DNA from: an uncultured Gammaproteobacteria bacterium
GTDB lineage: Bacteria; Pseudomonadota; Gammaproteobacteria; Enterobacterales; Psychrobiaceae
NCBI GenBank assembly: GCA_913060565.1
Contig: CAJXRU010000033.1
Span: forward strand, 1 to 33,681
DNA length: 33,681 nt
Direction: 5' to 3'
Below the pieces are notes generated by a model. It was not told where the DNA came from and ran no database searches. It saw only the letters and a list, made by a program, of their open reading frames with translations. A program made the translations under genes and the position numbers. Each line of letters opens with the position of its first letter. Within the stretch, counting starts at the first letter, position 1. Positions 9,411 to 33,681 of the stretch are shown in pieces.

Positions 9411-9435
9411 AAAAAAGCCAGCATGACGCTGGCTT
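9411..9435 (-). terminator. Terminator of ald
   Basis: The arms AAGCCAGC and GCTGGCTT enclose a five-base loop. Read on the minus strand the stem is followed by six Ts. It lies 34 bases past the ald stop, so ald and trxB are probably separate transcription units. Confidence 0.88.
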
Positions 9436-17837: not shown

Positions 17838-17862
17838 AAAACCACCTCACGGGTGGTTTTTT
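17838..17862 (+). terminator. Terminator of the serS unit
   Basis: The arms AAAACCACC and GGTGGTTTT enclose a five-base loop, and the second arm runs into six Ts. It lies immediately after the micro-ORF stop, closing the plus-strand gene block. Confidence 0.9.
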
Positions 17863-24956: not shown

Positions 24957-27545
24957 CTAATTAGCTACGATATTAACTAGTTTTCCTGGAATAACGATGA
25001 CTTTACGTACTGTTTTATCTTCAGTAAAACGTAATACATCACTATCTTCTAGGGCTAGCTTTTCAATATCATCTTTTGATGCATCAGCAGCAACTTTTAG
25101 TTTGGCGCGTAATTTACCATTCACTTGCACGATAATCAGTTTTGAATCTTCTACTAACGCTGACTCGTCAACACTTGGCCAGTCAACAAAGGCAAGATTA
25201 TCGTCATGACCCAATGCCGCATAGAGTTCGTGACAAATATGCGGTGCGATTGGTGCTAACATTTTAACAATAGCTTCGATTGCTTCGCCTAGAATCGCGC
25301 GATCTTGTTCAGACTCTGTTGGCGCCTTATACAGGCGGTTAACTAATTCCATGATTGCTGCGATGGCTGTGTTAAACGTTTGACGACGGCCAATATCGTC
25401 AGACACTTTAGCAATAGCCTTGTGTACTTCACGGCGTAATGATTTTTGTCCGTCATTAAACGCTGAAGCGTTAATCGCAGGAGTTGCGCCTTGTTCAATG
25501 TGATTGTAAGCCAAACGCCATACGCGTTTTAAGAAACGGTTAGCGCCTTCAACCGCAGAATCTACCCACTCAAGTGTTTGCTCAGCAGGGGCTGCGAACA
25601 TAATAAATAGACGAACTGTGTCTGCGCCGTATTTATCAATCATCACTTGTGGGTCAATACCGTTATTTTTAGACTTTGACATCTTACTCATACCAGCATG
25701 CTCAATTGGCTCGCCCGTTGATTTTTGAGTTGCACCGATGATCTGACCTTTGTCATTAGTGATGGTTTCAACATCATCTAATAAGATCCATTGCTTAGTG
25801 CCTTTCTCATCAAGCTTAAAGAAAGCGTCTGACAGTACCATGCCTTGCGTTAATAGCTTTTTGAACGGTTCGTTACTGTCGACTAAGCCCTGATCGCGTA
25901 GTAATTTGTGGAAGAAACGCGCGTACAATAAATGCAAGATTGCGTGTTCGATACCACCGATGTATTGATCAACAGGTAACCAGTGGTTAGCTTGTGCAGG
26001 ATCTAACATTGCATCTTTAGCGGGTGATGCGTAACGCGCGTAATACCAGCTTGACTCCATAAAGGTATCAAAGGTATCTGTTTCGTGCATCGCAGGCTGA
26101 CCGTTATAGGTTGTCTTAGCCCATTCTTTGTCTGATTTTATTGGCGAGTTAATCCCGTCCATCACAACATCTTCTGGTAACACAACAGGTAGCTGTTCAG
26201 CTGGCACTGGCACAACATCGCCATTTTCAAGATGCAGCATAGGGATCGGGCTACCCCAATAACGCTGACGAGAAACACCCCAGTCACGAAGACGGAAGTT
26301 CACTGTTTTCTTACCTTTACCTTGGGATTCTAATTCGCTGGCAATCGCGTCAAGTGCTTCATCTGATGTTAAACCATCAAACTGCGCCGAATTAAACAAA
26401 ACGCCTTTTTCGGTGTAAGCGGCTTCGCTAATATCAACGGTTTTGTCTTCACTGTCAGTTGCGTGAATTACCGCTTCAATGGACAAGTTATATTTAGTTG
26501 CAAATTCATAATCACGTTGGTCATGACCAGGTACAGCCATCACTGCGCCAGAGCCGTAATCAGCTAATACAAAGTTAGCAATCCACACCGGTACTTCACG
26601 GCCTGTTAATGGGTGAACAGCGAAGAAAGGAGTAGCAATACCTTTCTTTTCCATGGTTGCCATGTCCGCTTCAGCCACTTTAGTCGTCTTACATTCTTCG
26701 ATAAATGCAGCAATGTCGGTGTTAGTTTTAGCAGCTTCTAATGCAAGCGGGTGTTGCGCAGCAATACCAACGTACGTTACGCCCATCAACGTGTCAGGAC
26801 GCGTTGTGTAAACGTCTAATTTGTCTTGACGATCTTTTAAAGCAAAGCTTAAATCAACACCTTCAGAGCGACCAATCCAGTTGCGCTGCATGGTTTTAAC
26901 TTTTTCTGGCCATTCATCTAGCTCGTCCAAGTCATCTAATAACTCTTGTGCGTATTTGGTAATGCGAACAAACCACTGTGGAATTTCTTTGCGTTCAACC
27001 ACAGTGTCACAGCGCCAACAACAGCCATCAACAACTTGCTCATTGGCTAATACTGTTTGGTCATGTGGACACCAGTTAACCGCAGAGGTCTTTTTGTACA
27101 CCATGTCTTTTTTGTAAAGCTCAGTGAAGAACCACTGCTCCCAGCGATAGTAGTCAGGCTTACACGTTGCTAGTTCACGATCCCAATCGTAACCAAAACC
27201 CAAGGCACGTAATTGATCATTCATGTAGTCAATATTTTCGTACGTCCACTTAGCCGGCGCCGTTTTATGGTTAATTGCCGCGTTTTCAGCGGGTAAACCA
27301 AATGCATCCCAACCCATTGGTTGCAGTACGTTTTTACCTTGCATACGTTGGTAACGTGATACAACATCACCAATGGTGTAGTTACGGACGTGACCCATGT
27401 GCAGGCGGCCACTTGGGTATGGAAACATTGATAAACAATAAAACTTTTCTTGGCCATCTTTTTCAATAGCTTTGAAGGTGTTGGTATCAACCCAATATTT
27501 TTGGGCTTTGGATTCAATTTGTGATGGAGTGTACTGCTCTTGCAT
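24957..27545 (-). CDS. leuS: Leucine--tRNA ligase
   Basis: LeuRS charges tRNA-Leu and so also supplies the Leu-tRNA used by Aat and Bpt. The 862-residue protein (860 in E. coli) has the class I motifs HMGH in [17 protein letters not shown] near residue 40 and KMSKS in [16 protein letters not shown]. The CP1 editing domain is intact: [14 protein letters not shown], then [17 protein letters not shown] with the Asp that limits editing. A zinc-ribbon-like segment with [22 protein letters not shown] is present. The anticodon-binding domain and the C-terminal tail ([11 protein letters not shown]) complete it. It heads leuS-lptE-holA-nadD. Confidence 0.98.
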
Positions 27546-27809
27546 TTAACTTTACCTAGGACACTTAACGGCAATCAACCAAGTTGAAGGTGTTGCACGT
27601 TTTAAATATGAAAAAATTAGCCATAGGATACAGCCCAAGTTGATTTGCAACAATAGTTAGTTGCCTTGGATGATAAAAAGTTAGTCAAAATTGTGCAATC
27701 TGTTGTATCTAGGCGTATATTTTAACTATACCTGTTTCAAATGATGGTGTTCTATTCTCGCACCTTTATCTTGAATCGGGTGAATACGTTGTTCATTGGG
27801 GAGTTATTT

Positions 27810-28307
27810 ATGCAAACTGATAAGGCAATATTTAAAACTGGATACCATAAGTTGTTGGAATCGTTACAACGTCGTTGGTTAGAGCATGACAAAAAAGATA
27901 GTTTAGACGTGCTCATTGCTACTGGCATGGACAGTTATCGATTTAATCACGACATAAGTGATGAACAACTGCGTGATATTGAGTGGCAGTTAAAAATTGA
28001 TCTCACTGAATTTATCAGTGATTCACGGCAAAACCCGGCGCTAATCAATTCTCCGTCCTACCTTGCGATGGAATCAACTATTTGGCAATGGGCCTTAGCA
28101 ATAAGTGATAAGTGCCAAATAGAATGGCTAGAACTAAGTCAAGACATAAAACACGATGGGCTTTACCAGACCGACGATGTGGTAGGGCTAGGGCAGTTTC
28201 TTTGTTTACAATGTTCAAGCGCTATCTTGGTTTATCATCCGCAAGCCTTAAGCACCTGTGCTCGGTGCCAAGGCTCGCAGTTTAGGCGAATCGCCTTTAG
28301 TCCTTAG
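27810..28307 (+). CDS. ybeL: YbeL family zinc-ribbon protein (DUF1451)
   Basis: The function is unknown. The 165-residue protein matches E. coli YbeL: a helical N-terminal part, the segment KCQIEWLELSQDIKHDGLYQTDDVVGLGQF, and a C-terminal zinc ribbon with two CxxC pairs (CLQC and CARC) ending QFRRIAFSP. E. coli ybeL also lies beside leuS on the opposite strand, which supports the assignment. The start is ATG 27810, with GGGGAG 6 bases before it; an earlier in-frame start at 27741 would add 23 residues unlike the family. Its 3' end overlaps that of lnt by 11 bases, tail to tail, with no terminator visible. Confidence 0.92.
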   Translation: MQTDKAIFKTGYHKLLESLQRRWLEHDKKDSLDVLIATGMDSYRFNHDISDEQLRDIEWQLKIDLTEFISDSRQNPALINSPSYLAMESTIWQWALAISDKCQIEWLELSQDIKHDGLYQTDDVVGLGQFLCLQCSSAILVYHPQALSTCARCQGSQFRRIAFSP

Positions 28308-29952
28308 TTAATGAATAACCGTCATTTATCGTCGCCAGTTTTTGAGTTAAGCGATTCTGGCGATGGCCGGCTAACATGCAAATTCCGAGCAAACAGCCAA
28401 ACAAAATCACAAACGGTGTCTGGCCGTGGCGGTAAAAGAAGGTTTCACCAGTGACAGTTTTGACGTTTGCTCGCAGTACGGCTTCTTTGAATTGAGGTAG
28501 CTTATTCACTATCTTTCCATATTGATCGACGATAGCAGTTACCCCAGTGTTAGTCACTCGAATTAAAGGTCTTCCTAATTCAACGGCGCGCATTTGAGCG
28601 ATTTGCATATGTTGGTGTGGCCCGATGGACTCACCGAACCATGCGTCATTAGAAATCGTCAGTAGAAAATCTGTATCTGATTTCATGTTTGCCCTGACTA
28701 GATCGCCGAAGGCTATCTCATAACAAATAGCTGGTGAAAACTTAAAACCCCTTGCTGTTAAATTGTTTTGTGCCCAATCTCCACGGGCAAACGAAGACAT
28801 TGGCAAATTAAACAAAGGCGCTAAAGGACGTAACAGCGATTGTAAAGGCACAAATTCACCAATGGGTAACAATTGATGCTTATAATATCTATTATCATGA
28901 CTTGGCTGATAAATTCCTCCAATATTACGACTGTCAGTGGCATTGCCGACAGTCATGATGGCGTTAAAGTAATCATGATTAATGGAAGACGGTGGCTTAG
29001 CTGCGAGGTTTGGTGCGATATTTTTCTTTGAGGTGCGGCCAATAATACCGGTGATTATGGCGCTGTCATTAAATGCTGCTGCCGAATCCATTAATTTTAG
29101 ATAATCTTGGACCCAGCCTTCAACGGCTGGCATAGCAGCTTCAGGCCAAATGATGACATCACTATCAAAATGCTCTCGGCTTAAATCCATATAACGAGTA
29201 ATAGTCGGCCACATGGCCTTAGCATCCCATTTTGCACTTTGCTCAATGTTGCCTTGAATAAGCGCAAGGTTGACGGAGCGATCTTGTTCAATTAACTGGT
29301 GTTGGCTAGTTAGACTAAAACTACCAAAGGCAACGATGATGAGTAAAACTGCACTTTTTAAGTGACGCTTTATGGTGTAAAAGGCGAGGGTAGACAACAA
29401 GCAAATAATAGCTGACAAGCCCAACATTCCAATGACTGATGCGGCGCTACTATAAAGCCCAGTTGTTTGGCTATAACCTAATGATAACCATGGGAACCCA
29501 GTTAACACGATACCGCGTAGATATTCTGTCACTAACCACGCACTGGTGAACAACAACACATTAAATAATGGCCATTGTGGCTGACGATACTTAATGAAGA
29601 GATAACAGGCCAATGCTGGATAAAGGGCAAGATATAGGGCAAGTAACAGCATCAAGATTAATGTCACTATCAGCGGCAAACCGCCAAAAATATCCAATGA
29701 CACGTGAACCCAACGCAGACCTGCTAAAAATAAACCACATCCGAATGCTAGGCCAAGGCCAAATGCTGTCCCAACCGAATTAACTTTATGATGGTGCAGC
29801 AATGCGAATAGAGCAATTAATGAAACGGGAACTGCCCATTGCTGATCATAAGGTGCAAATCCCAAATGGGCGATAATACCGGCTAGAAATGCAATGGCAG
29901 GTAAGATAAAAAAACGCCCCTGAAGGGCGTTTAACATTGGGGGTAATCCCAT
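28297..29952 (-). CDS. lnt: Apolipoprotein N-acyltransferase
   Basis: Lnt adds the third acyl chain to lipoproteins in the inner membrane, needed before LolA can export them. The 551-residue protein has about six N-terminal membrane helices, a periplasmic nitrilase domain and a last helix near the C-terminus. The catalytic triad is visible as Glu271 (IIWPEAAMP), Lys358 (YYKHQLLPIGEFVPL) and Cys410 (SPAICYEIAFG). The Lys-Cys distance (52) equals that of E. coli, while Glu-Lys is about 19 residues longer, reflecting a polar insert. The start is ATG 29952, 17 bases after corC; ATG 29937 is the alternative. A terminator-like hairpin lies within codons 7-15. Confidence 0.96.
   Translation of the reverse strand: MGLPPMLNALQGRFFILPAIAFLAGIIAHLGFAPYDQQWAVPVSLIALFALLHHHKVNSVGTAFGLGLAFGCGLFLAGLRWVHVSLDIFGGLPLIVTLILMLLLALYLALYPALACYLFIKYRQPQWPLFNVLLFTSAWLVTEYLRGIVLTGFPWLSLGYSQTTGLYSSAASVIGMLGLSAIICLLSTLAFYTIKRHLKSAVLLIIVAFGSFSLTSQHQLIEQDRSVNLALIQGNIEQSAKWDAKAMWPTITRYMDLSREHFDSDVIIWPEAAMPAVEGWVQDYLKLMDSAAAFNDSAIITGIIGRTSKKNIAPNLAAKPPSSINHDYFNAIMTVGNATDSRNIGGIYQPSHDNRYYKHQLLPIGEFVPLQSLLRPLAPLFNLPMSSFARGDWAQNNLTARGFKFSPAICYEIAFGDLVRANMKSDTDFLLTISNDAWFGESIGPHQHMQIAQMRAVELGRPLIRVTNTGVTAIVDQYGKIVNKLPQFKEAVLRANVKTVTGETFFYRHGQTPFVILFGCLLGICMLAGHRQNRLTQKLATINDGYSLTKD
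29908..29932 (-). terminator. Terminator-like hairpin inside the start of lnt
   Basis: On the minus strand the arms AAACGCCC and GGGCGTTT pair perfectly around the loop TTCAG, and the second arm runs into seven Ts. It has the full form of an intrinsic terminator, yet lies 20-45 bases inside lnt. Translating ribosomes would normally mask it, so it could cut lnt transcription when translation is slow. Confidence 0.55.
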
Positions 29953-29969
29953 AAACTACTTAAATCCTA

Positions 29970-30836
29970 TTAAGTTTGCGACTCTGTTGTTGGTACTTTA
30001 ACTTGCAATTGTACTAATCGTCGCGAATCCGCTTTAATGACTTTAAATTGATAGTCCATAAGTTGAATCTCTTCACCACTGCTGGGTAAATGTCCAAACT
30101 CTTTGGTGATTAAGCCACCAATGGTATCAACTTCAGATTCATCAAATTTTGTATCGAAGTATTGGTTAAAATCTTCCAGAGTTGTCAATGCGGCTATTGA
30201 ATAAACTTGCTTACCAACTTTTTTGATATCTTCGGTAATGGTTTCATCAATGGCTGATTCATCTTCAATTTCACCAACAATCTCTTCAAGGATATCTTCG
30301 ATGGTAACGAGTCCAGATACGCCGCCATATTCATCAACAACGACAGCCATGTGATAGCGCTTAGCACGGAACTCACGCAACAATACATCTACTTTTTTAC
30401 TTTCAGGAACGATGACACAAGGACGAATAATATTGCTAATTACTTGGTTTTCGATATCACCATCAAGTGTTAGCGGGATAATGTCTTTGGCTAACAACAT
30501 TCCTTCGACATTATCTTTGTCTTCAGAAATAACAGGGAATCGAGAGTGAGAAGATTTGGTAATCACTTCAATTGTTTTGGCGATAGTATGGTTATTTTCT
30601 AATACAACCATTTGAGAGCGCGGGATCATGATATCTCTCACGCGCTTGCGCGACACATTAAGCACACCATGGATCATGTCTTGGGTGTATGAATCAATTA
30701 ATGCGCGATCGCCTGCATCTTGGATAAATTCAACTAACTCTTCTTGGCTTTTTAATTCGCCTTGGAACATTTGTCCGATACGCTCTAGCCAAGTTTTGTT
30801 AGTTGTTTGACTACTTGGAGGTTTGTCTTCACTCAT
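29970..30836 (-). CDS. corC: CorC/YbeX CBS-domain protein
   Basis: The 288-residue protein (292 in E. coli) is named for a role with CorA in magnesium and cobalt efflux; links to ribosome maturation have also been proposed for YbeX. It has an N-terminal acidic, Gln-rich segment, two CBS domains (about 65-190, with VRDIMIPRSQMV and YHMAVVVDEYGGVSGLVTIEDILEEIVGEIEDE) and a C-terminal CorC/HlyC domain (about 205-280, with DTIGGLI and FGHLPSSGEEI). There are no membrane helices, so it is the soluble short form. It lies 30 bases after ybeY and 17 before lnt, in the conserved ybeZ-ybeY-ybeX-lnt operon. Confidence 0.95.
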   Translation of the reverse strand: MSEDKPPSSQTTNKTWLERIGQMFQGELKSQEELVEFIQDAGDRALIDSYTQDMIHGVLNVSRKRVRDIMIPRSQMVVLENNHTIAKTIEVITKSSHSRFPVISEDKDNVEGMLLAKDIIPLTLDGDIENQVISNIIRPCVIVPESKKVDVLLREFRAKRYHMAVVVDEYGGVSGLVTIEDILEEIVGEIEDESAIDETITEDIKKVGKQVYSIAALTTLEDFNQYFDTKFDESEVDTIGGLITKEFGHLPSSGEEIQLMDYQFKVIKADSRRLVQLQVKVPTTESQT

Positions 30837-30866
30837 TGCTGATTATTTTTCCTACGATATTTGAAA

Positions 30867-31325
30867 TTATAATATGTCGTCACGATAGGGATCGTCAATC
30901 GCTAATGTGGCTAATACTTTCTTTTCAAGCGACTCCATCTCAAGTGCTTGATCTGGTTCAATATGATCCATTCCTAATAAATGTAACGAACCATGTATCA
31001 CCATATGCGCCCAATGATCATTGAGTGCTTTTTCTTGTTCAATTGCTTCTTGCTCGATAATTGATTTACAAATGACAAGATCACCAAGCAAATTGAGTTC
31101 AACCATTGGCGGCGCATCAAATTCAAATGACAACACATTGGTTGGTTTATCCTTACCGCGATACTCACGGTTAAGTGCTTGTGACTCTTCAGGTTCAACC
31201 AAACGGATCGTCACTTCGGCATTTGGTTTTACATCTTTTAATGCCGCTGTTAACCAGGTGGTAAACTGGGCTTGAGTGGGTAAACCGGATTCGTCACAGG
31301 CAATTTGTAAATCAAGATCAATCAT
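30867..31325 (-). CDS. ybeY: Endoribonuclease YbeY
   Basis: YbeY is a zinc-dependent RNase used in 16S rRNA 3'-end maturation and ribosome quality control. The 152-residue protein (155 in E. coli) has the metal-binding [11 protein letters not shown] (HxxxHxxxxxH) near residue 112 and the conserved Arg in [17 protein letters not shown]. The start ATG lies inside the end of ybeZ (8-base overlap), so translation is probably coupled. The pairing with the PhoH-like ATPase is conserved and suggests a joint role. Confidence 0.96.
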
Positions 31326-32391
31326 TATTAGGTGACTCTTGCGCTACTGTTTCTTGCTTAGCTATCTCTTGTATCGCCCTTTCTTGTTTGCGAACAGCAT
31401 TGGCACGATTTTCGTTATCTTCATACGCTTGATACGCATCAACCACACGTGCAACTACTTGGTGGCGTACGATATCGCGTGACTGGAAGAAATTAAAGCT
31501 CACAGAATCGATATCGCTGAGTACTTCAATGGCTTGACGCAAACCACTTTTTACGTGGCGCGGTAAATCAACCTGCGTAATATCACCTGTGATAATCGCT
31601 TTTGAATTAAAACCGATACGGGTTAAGAACATTTTCATTTGTTCTGTGGTGGTGTTTTGAGATTCATCTAGGATCACAAATGCATCATTGAGTGTGCGAC
31701 CGCGCATATAGGCAAGAGGGGCAATTTCAATAACATTTTTTTCAATCAGTTTTTCGACTTTCTCAAAACCGAGCATTTCAAACAGTGCATCATAAAGTGG
31801 ACGTAAATAAGGGTCTACTTTTTGGCTCAAATCACCGGGTAAAAAACCGAGCTTTTCGCCGGCTTCAACGGCTGGGCGAGTCAATAAAATACGACGTACT
31901 TCTTGGCGTTCTAATGCATCCACAGCGCAAGCAACAGCGAGATACGTTTTACCGGTACCGGCAGGCCCCACACCAAAACAAATATCATTAGTTTTGATAT
32001 TGGCAACATAGTCTTGCTGGTTTAAGTTGCGCGGCTTAATAATGCCTTTGCGAGTTTTTATGTAGAATTCATTGCCTTGATTGGCCACTTCATCTTGTTC
32101 AAGCGCACGACATTCTTCAATAGCCATGTGAACTTGATCAGGCGTCAACTCTGCTGTTTGTCCATTAACTGGGGCAGTTTCAATATAGAGATCTCGTAGC
32201 ATGTCTGATACAGGTTTAGCGATTTCAGGGCGGCCAATGATTTGAAAGTGATTGTCTTTATAGAGAATTTCTACGCCCATGCGACGCTCTATTTGCTTTA
32301 GATTGTCGTTAAATGGACCACATAGGTTGATTAAACGAGCCTGTGTCGGTGGTTCCATATAGGTATCAACGGTAATAATGTTTTTAGCCAA
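31318..32391 (-). CDS. ybeZ: PhoH-like ATPase YbeZ
   Basis: YbeZ is a PhoH-family NTPase believed to work with YbeY in RNA metabolism. The 357-residue protein has a small KH-like N-terminal domain (about 1-100, [24 protein letters not shown]) and the PhoH P-loop domain. Walker A is [20 protein letters not shown] near residue 140. [19 protein letters not shown] follows, then Walker [13 protein letters not shown]. The tail is Glu/Gln/Ala-rich and probably disordered. The start is TTG 32391, with AAGGAA about 10 bases upstream; the first in-frame ATG (codon 12) lies inside the conserved region, so TTG is preferred. A hairpin lies upstream in the gap after miaB. Confidence 0.94.
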
Positions 32392-32417
32392 GAGTTAACT
32401 GTTCCTTTTTGTTGATG

Positions 32418-32450
32418 AAAACGAAAGACAAGTTGTTGTCTTTCGTTTTT
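32418..32450. terminator. Long hairpin between miaB and ybeZ
   Basis: Arms of 14 bases (AAAACGAAAGACAA with TTGTCTTTCGTTTT) enclose the loop GTTG, and on both strands the stem ends in a T-run. It lies 28 bases after the miaB stop and could end miaB transcripts. The stem is A+T-rich, so termination may be partial. Confidence 0.65.
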
Positions 32451-32477
32451 CCCTAGCGCAAATATAAAGCTAGATTT

Positions 32478-33647
32478 TTACGGTGTATATATTCCGACAC
32501 CTGATTCATCAATAGATTCATTGTGCTTTGCTAAGATTGACTCTGGTGACGTATCAACACGTAATCCCATTTCATCTTCACCGCGCACGAATTCACCACG
32601 TAATGAGTTAGTGAATACATCGACAACTTTCACGTCGGCAAAACCACCGATCAAGCTGTGTGGACCTTCGAAGTTAATCACGCGATTATTTTCAGTTCGG
32701 CCACGTAATTCCATCGGGTTTTTCTTTGACGGGCCTTCAACCAAAATACGTTGTTCAGTATTAAGCATATGGCGTGCATGTTGAAGTGCTTGCTGATTAA
32801 TGCGATGTTGCAATAGACCAAGACGCTGCTTTTTCTCTTCCATCGGCACATCGTCAGGAAGATCAGCCGCTGGAGTACCAGGACGAGCACTGTAAATGAA
32901 GCTAAAGCTCATATCAAAATTGATTTCTTCGATAAGTTTCATTGTATCTTGGAAGTCTTCATCTGACTCGCCAGGGAAACCGATGATAAAATCACTGCTC
33001 ATTGCGATATTAGGGCGCACTTTGCGCAATTGGCGGACGGTTTTCTTAAACTCAATCGCCATATGATTACGCTTCATCAGATTTAGAATGCGATCTGAGC
33101 CTGATTGAACTGGCAAATGTAAGTGATCTACTAGTTCTGGCACATCAGCATACACCTCAACTAAACGCTGAGTGAACTCAACAGGGTGGCTCGTTGTATA
33201 ACGAATACGGTCAATTCCATCAATCGAAGCAATTAGGCGAATTAAGTCAGCAAAATCACAAATATCATCTTCAAAGGTAGCGCCGCGATAAGCGTTTACG
33301 TTTTGACCTAATAAATTAACTTCACGTACACCTTGCTCAGCCAATGACGCCACTTCATATAAAACGTCATCAAGTGGACGAGAAACTTCTTCACCACGAG
33401 TATAAGGTACAACACAGAAGCTACAGTATTTACTACAACCTTCCATGACTGATACAAAAGCTGTTACGCCATCAGCTTTAGGCTCTGGCAGTCGGTCAAA
33501 TTTTTCAATTTCTGGGAAACTTACATCGATAACTGTCTTTTCACCTTGTTGGATCTTTGAAATCATTTCTGGCAAACGATGTAATGTTTGTGGGCCGAAA
33601 ATTAAATCAACAAAATGAGCACGTTCTCGAATGGCCTTACCTTCTTG
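32478..33647 (-). CDS. miaB: tRNA-2-methylthio-N6-dimethylallyladenosine synthase MiaB, N-terminus missing
   Basis: MiaB is a radical-SAM enzyme that methylthiolates i6A37 in tRNAs reading UNN codons. The 389 genomic residues cover the radical-SAM core, with CxxxCxxC in [45 protein letters not shown] and [10 protein letters not shown], followed by the C-terminal TRAM domain ([22 protein letters not shown]). By alignment with E. coli MiaB (474 residues) about 86 N-terminal residues are missing, including the three cysteines of the auxiliary iron-sulfur cluster. This is a contig-end cut, not a natural truncation. Genomic coding begins at Gln (33645-33647); the upstream GTG at 33660-33662 and the residues YKRQ come from the adapter. 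Confidence 0.97.
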
Positions 33648-33681
33648 CTGTCTCTTATACACATCTCCGAGCCCACGAGAC
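33648..33681 (-). other. Synthetic Nextera read-2 adapter (not genomic)
   Basis: Bases 33648-33666 (CTGTCTCTTATACACATCT) are the reverse complement of the Tn5 mosaic end, and 33667-33681 (CCGAGCCCACGAGAC) are the Nextera read-2 adapter up to the point where the i7 index would begin. Genomic sequence ends at 33647. Confidence 0.99.

Follow-up and report, generated by a model that had tools for sequence, protein, structure and literature searches.

The first codons of lnt, the gene for apolipoprotein N-acyltransferase, appear to be dual-coded. In the window (the whole 33,681-nt stretch of DNA analysed here) they encode the start of the protein and, on balance probably, also an intrinsic (Rho-independent) terminator, which would end most ybeZ-ybeY-corC transcripts and leave lnt to be expressed on read-through. 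Because relatives keep the hairpin by silent and compensating changes, a single segment of DNA appears to act both as protein code and as RNA signal. Sequence comparison shows the anatomy of a terminator, its coding position, selection on the codons of stem and U-run in the genus of the window and in Vibrio-type genomes, and compensatory changes in Vibrionaceae. The features concerned are the following.

28297..29952, minus strand: lnt, apolipoprotein N-acyltransferase (551 aa; TIGR00546), start ATG at 29952-29950.
29905..29907, minus strand: ATC codon that follows the U-run; of the 20 Ile columns of the genus, no other is restricted to a single codon.
29908..29914, minus strand: U-run of seven, of which 29914-29912 also belong to the 3' arm; six or seven T in 9/9 genus genomes.
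29912..29932, minus strand: terminator-type stem-loop inside lnt (5' arm 29932-29925, loop 29924-29920, 3' arm 29919-29912), present in 9/9 genus genomes.
29935..29937, minus strand: second in-frame ATG (lnt codon 6), with just 5 nt between it and the stem; a possible, less likely start.
29970..30836, minus strand: corC (ybeX) type gene, whose transcript the terminator would end; best NCBIfam model CorC with 355 bits, below the cut-off of 379.
30867..31325, minus strand: ybeY (TIGR00043, above cut-off).
31318..32391, minus strand: PhoH-like gene in the ybeZ position (PRK10536, 223 bits, below the cut-off of 380).

The best NCBIfam models of the neighbours are MiaB, PhoH, YbeY, CorC and Lnt, with PhoH and CorC below their own cut-offs. 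corC and lnt lie on the same strand, with 17 nt from the corC stop codon to the likely lnt start. For Salmonella, the excerpted text of PMC12421838 gives the order ybeZ-ybeY-corC-lnt and places corC and lnt in one operon.

Read from the sequence, a terminator-type hairpin occupies lnt codons 7-15 on the minus strand from 29932 to 29908, where the original prediction had located it, and starts 37 nt past the corC stop. From 29932 to 29905 the strand reads AAACGCCC-TTCAG-GGGCGTTT-TTTT-ATC; in terms of the codons, AAACGCCC-TTCAG-GGGCGTTTTTTT is followed by ATC. Positions 29932-29925 pair with 29919-29912 in an 8-bp stem with five G-C pairs; one more pair (U-G) could form, and the loop comprises 3-5 nucleotides. 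The element thus combines a G+C-rich stem and a short loop with a U-run right behind the stem (seven T, three of them shared with the stem). Its earlier description, with eight stem pairs and seven further Us behind them, stands as to the hairpin but not as to the count, since three Us were counted twice: the element has either 8 bp and four Us, or 5 bp and seven. A 31-mer containing the hairpin folds at -12.6 kcal/mol (z -4.6; 0/200 shuffles equal or better), and longer stretches are less striking (76-mer, z -2.4, with 6/200 shuffles as good; 81-mer, z -1.4, with 19/200).

A consensus scan of 27000-33681 returned five terminator-like sites compared with 5.6 expected from shuffles, so that the number of sites is no argument for the lnt hairpin, but its strength is: among the five it has the most pairs. 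With a d'Aubenton-type terminator score, the lnt hairpin reaches 33.3 as against 21.6 at 9435(-) and 16.0 at 17838(+), both intergenic in the window. The prediction that it has the form of a terminator is supported. The hairpin at 9415-9435, which served as a yardstick, is terminator-like and scores on both strands. Control windows within the lnt genes of the genus exceed zero in 1/207 cases (maximum 6.9). Across 400 kb of another genome from the genus, the first 80 nt score above zero in 2/270 ORFs of 150 aa or more (37.4 and 4.2) and mid-gene windows in 0/270; the ORF scoring 37.4 is an over-long upstream extension across the terminator of the preceding gene, which we take to be der. The stem pattern is present once in the window's genome, and a dispersed repeat or mobile terminator is thereby ruled out.

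Within the genus, stem and U-run (6-7 T) are found at the same lnt codons in 9/9 genomes (the window and eight others, whose lnt proteins are 57-89% identical to the window's), and the junction window bears a hairpin in 9/9 compared with 4/216 windows inside lnt. Loop codon 11 is variable (Q, K, N, S, N, E, L, Q, T), whereas Gly-Arg-Phe is present in 9/9 genomes and spelled by the same codons, GGG-CGT-TTT, in all of them. For the best 10-codon window, at the hairpin, pairwise synonymous identity is 237/255 (0.93) versus 4609/10954 (0.42) across lnt, in a comparison where the L009 CDS begins one codon too early. The 12 best of 489 such windows all overlap the hairpin, and the best of the 471 windows elsewhere reaches 0.60. 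The first codons of corC (MSEDKPPSSQ..., window 30790-30836, minus strand) show synonymous identity of up to 0.85 in the genus, where the gene mean is 0.53; raised codon identity is thus not unique to the hairpin. When synonymous codons were redrawn with the protein held fixed (300 draws, random seed not fixed, so that p-values would shift slightly on a rerun), the terminator was significant at p<=0.01 in 8/9 genus loci and gave 0.013 in L008; the stem regardless of the U-run was not significant in L002 (p 0.063). The genus stems vary little: two one-sided changes retain pairing, and no compensatory pair occurs among the nine genus junctions. Judged by these codons and by those of the Vibrio-type genomes, the hairpin is under selection.

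The Vibrio-type sample comprises 38 genomes, namely the 30 closest matches and 8 chosen more distant ones; the label rests on named loci with the same hairpin type (L038, L044). A terminator-shaped hairpin lies within the lnt codons of 37/38 of them, about -47..-27 from the FAPY motif, and resampling gives p<=0.01 for the terminator in 35/38. In the 30 closest loci, which are no even draw and of which 13 carry an identical hairpin sequence, the junction window has a hairpin in 30/30 cases versus 41/720 control windows within lnt. Across 23 distinct Vibrio-type sequences (42 genomes, including three sister genera), 169/184 cells are paired, with a shuffle maximum of 161 and at most 116 in slid controls, and 21 cells carry both-side, that is, compensatory, changes. 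Among the 150 columns of the 30 closest lnt genes, those with a single codon (CAT, CGC, CGG, GCC, TTT, GTT, GGC) are all in or beside the hairpin; the fixed CGG makes up about 1% of the Arg codons of these genes, and the fixed TTT-GTT of the U-run is located beyond the stem. In Vibrio sinus (L044) the stem is present and the U-run interrupted. A shared origin of the genus and Vibrio hairpins is unlikely; as their position (-73..-52 versus -47..-27 from FAPY) and reading frame differ, we read them as independent.

Most sampled families have no terminator-shaped hairpin in lnt, and a few other lineages possess one. The locus collection leaves out 22/162 loci with no recognised lnt frame or anchor. 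Hairpins of dG<=-9 occur in 4/38 Shewanellaceae and in 11/63 other loci; the latter include L031 and L032, duplicates of G007 and G001 that are not counted within the genus. Among Shewanella-type loci, 2/41 have a hairpin in the stretch examined, and in three (L019, L201, L241) a strong hairpin is present farther upstream. At the start of lnt, U-tailed hairpins were seen in 3/3 genomes of family f10, where they are weaker (dG -10), and in f12 (1/5), f13 (1/2), f18 (1/3), Ferrimonas-type (2/5), g69 (2/4) and g66 (2/3) genomes. Parashewanella (L034-L036) likewise has a U-tailed hairpin of 29 nt at this place, with a d'Aubenton-type score of -47 in L035; simple-stem tests did not confirm the g66/Parashewanella hairpin and found nothing in g66. 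About 15 further families, sampled with one to six genomes each, yielded no hairpin at the lnt start. Four f25 loci (L026, L028, L029, L030) share a GC-rich hairpin, CGCCCCTGC...GGGGCG and then TTGTCAT, which lies some 80-245 nt upstream of the lnt anchor. A plasmid search with the corC-lnt DNA returned partial matches only.

The distances between hairpin and start codon bear on its function. In the genus, 20-23 nt separate the likely lnt start from the stem (33 nt with the GTG of L006 as start), which places the stem just beyond the footprint of an initiating ribosome. More widely, 27/28 stem-bearing loci (31 listed) have an in-frame start codon 20-29 nt ahead of the stem, some with nearer ones too, in a survey of start codons and codon identity in which the corC of L005 is cut short. 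This spacing suits a terminator that does not block initiation, and equally a hairpin that acts on the ribosome. A mis-annotated lnt start was considered and rejected: in the window's species the only in-frame start between hairpin and FAPY is a TTG, which precedes FAPY by two codons and whose use would remove the first helix, and there is no alternative in 36/38 Vibrio-type and 22/25 Photobacterium-type loci. In 7/9 genus genomes an in-frame ATG, GTG or TTG does follow the hairpin before FAPY, so a later start is possible there. A Pro-Pro pair (MGLPPM, codons 4-5, window 29938-29943) lies just 5' of the hairpin; among the nine it occurs only in the window's species and in G007, and possibly represents an EF-P-dependent pause. 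From the corC stop, located in all but 22 of 220 loci, the hairpin is 33-113 nt away in the genus and 26-90 nt away in those Vibrionaceae loci where it occurs. A general rule that the hairpin lies more than 27 nt past the corC stop was abandoned: it holds in the genus and, one case of 26 nt aside, in Vibrionaceae, but other lineages often fall short of 27 nt, several with 9-24 nt, and the spacing argument is therefore not general.

For E. coli, the excerpts of PMC4824070 state that the ribosome at an upstream stop codon represses a terminator lying no more than about 27-30 nt beyond it, that terminators are functional within the initial 100 bp of a coding region, and that translation costs a terminator 30 bp past the start codon only about 10% of its efficiency. 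A working terminator is favoured, since the spacing of the genus hairpin falls in the stretch that these rules permit. We propose that the dual-coded codons would give a short tail ahead of the first membrane helix together with a terminator directed from corC into lnt. RNA polymerase arriving via ybeZ-ybeY-corC would free most transcripts at about 29905-29910, and lnt would be expressed from the read-through fraction, so that the element would set the corC:lnt ratio. With at least 33 nt to the corC stop and 20-23 nt to the likely lnt start, the genus spacing would permit folding while the last corC ribosome is at its stop, and the hairpin would form before any lnt ribosome could catch up. The terminated RNA would bear an lnt start without a stop codon; for this reason the weak lnt starts (TTG or GTG) in four of nine genus species may limit wasteful initiation.

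We favour a working terminator over a stem that acts in the mRNA, and the latter over an attenuator that depends on translation. In the second of these readings the conserved entity would be the stem itself, with the U-run incidental or a later addition, and it would modulate initiation or re-initiation after corC or protect a processed corC 3' end; we consider this rather unlikely. It draws on the 25 Photobacterium-type genomes (23 distinct sequences; L168-L173, L256-L274), which form long stems in the lnt codons. These stems are significant by codon resampling (p<=0.01) in 20/25, whereas by the criterion of the resampling test a U-run terminator at the lnt start is found in 0/25; L168 has a short TTTT and a d'Aubenton-type score of 6.6. 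Their pairing is kept by compensation, with 210/230 cells paired as against a shuffle maximum of 204, and 18 both-side changes compared with at most 12 in shuffles. Similarly, L046, whose lnt is 54-60% identical to that of the genus and which is about as near to the genus as the genus's own outer members, carries a 10-bp stem of other sequence without a U-run. The Photobacterium-type and L046 stems are either remnants or stems with a use of their own, and since the former are compensated without a U-run, the stem may do more than terminate. The in-frame start 20-29 nt before the stem in 27/28 stem loci also fits an effect on ribosomes. Against this reading, the U-run codons past the stem do not vary, either among the 30 Vibrio-type lnt genes, with TTT and GTT, or within the genus, with TTT and then ATC, and the d'Aubenton-type score lies above those of intergenic sites.

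Relatives thus keep the stem beyond the needs of the protein, as the genus codon identity, the resampling tests and the Vibrio-type and Photobacterium-type genomes agree in indicating; compensatory changes, a check named with the original prediction, were observed in Vibrio-type and Photobacterium-type stems and are lacking in the genus.

The original prediction went further and proposed a translation-dependent attenuator, in which prompt lnt ribosomes melt the stem and let transcription continue, and poor initiation leads to a stop. The position of the stem within the early codons and the weak TTG or GTG starts of four of nine species agree with such a device, as does the Pro-Pro found directly 5' of the stem in two of the species, the window's and G007; according to the excerpts of PMC5021804, motifs of this class uncouple ribosome and polymerase in the absence of EF-P and unmask a terminator. 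Pro-Pro is, however, missing in seven of nine genus species. RNAalifold found no conserved competing (antiterminator) structure in the nine genus junctions, only the hairpin and one weak 3-pair helix inside lnt. This result and the translation effect of about 10% on a terminator 30 bp past the start codon in the excerpts of PMC4824070 weaken the attenuator, and the proposal did not gain support. Translation-dependence is possible as the weaker reading; the attenuator as such appears improbable.

That codons at the start of a membrane helix happen to form a hairpin, by chance or through protein constraint alone, is very improbable and largely refuted by the codon tests: Leu/Ala/Gly-rich helix starts do fold elsewhere, with 8.6% of control windows at -8 kcal/mol or better, and the F columns of the genus are often TTT (81% usage; 5/17 entirely TTT), but codon resampling, codon identity and compensatory changes oppose it, and scores above zero occur in only 1/207 lnt windows and, the over-extended ORF aside, 1/270 gene starts, both weak.

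Returning to the working terminator, a broader and more tentative proposal is that the lnt 5' end has repeatedly evolved a coding hairpin 20-29 nt past the start in several gammaproteobacterial lineages, with differing sequence, frame and position. This convergent element might meter Lnt synthesis as a terminator in the genus, in Vibrio and in some members of other families and, in lineages that lost the U-run (Photobacterium, L046), by a second mechanism based on translation or stability.

Intrinsic terminators are expected at gene ends. In the lnt case a terminator is apparently maintained within the opening codons of an important coding sequence, where it constrains silent codons and possibly amino acids. 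If it works, it would explain how a single operon can make Lnt at a level different from that of its ribosome-maturation and magnesium proteins, and it would provide a natural case for rules of ribosome-polymerase spacing so far measured on plasmids. The Photobacterium stems without a U-run make a separate function of the hairpin directly testable. Codon changes at the lnt start in reporters or knock-ins may alter transcription.

A known Rfam RNA was rejected as an explanation. No match with E<=1 was found in window 28297-32400 and none to the Lnt RNA motif RF01711 in 10 related loci, which gave one sub-threshold match to an unrelated family. At window 27845-27902 on the minus strand (L001 1046-1103) there is a weak Rfam match to MDR-NUDIX (26.4 bits against a gathering threshold of 54.9, E 0.33), probably by chance. 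RF01711 is likewise a conserved RNA structure named after lnt, but belongs to Chlorobi, another phylum (PMC2864571, in excerpt). Open-licence PMC full text, which leaves most subscription journals outside, contained no account of such a conserved terminator within lnt; the consulted portion of the attenuator survey PMC2965389 does not mention lnt, and the main text of PMC7815308 mentions neither lnt nor ybeX.

Among described systems, the geometry is closest to that of the tR2 terminator inserted within the first 100 bp of an E. coli coding region, where the stem lies about 30 nt past the start and more than 27-30 nt from the upstream stop and termination takes place (PMC4824070, in excerpt); those were plasmid constructs, whereas the lnt hairpin is a natural site conserved across a genus. 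In pyrBI-type ribosome-controlled attenuators, as treated in the same excerpts, a near ribosome can block folding of the terminator, as may hold for lnt; in contrast to these, the lnt locus has no visible leader peptide or conserved alternative structure. The terminators that set stoichiometry in clostridial ABC-importer operons stand between operon genes and allow partial read-through, as the lnt hairpin may do, but they are intergenic (PMC9045158, in excerpt), and the lnt hairpin is inside the downstream coding sequence, in codons 7-15. The 3' ends in E. coli 5' UTRs and ORFs, for example at ispU/uppS, reflect premature intrinsic termination before or within genes, as is proposed for lnt (PMC7815308, in excerpt, for E. 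coli); the ispU terminator is in the 5' UTR, unlike the lnt hairpin within the ORF. Intraoperonic terminators, terminators in 5' UTRs and ORFs, and attenuators are thus already known, and the conserved putative terminator inside lnt would be a new variant of these.
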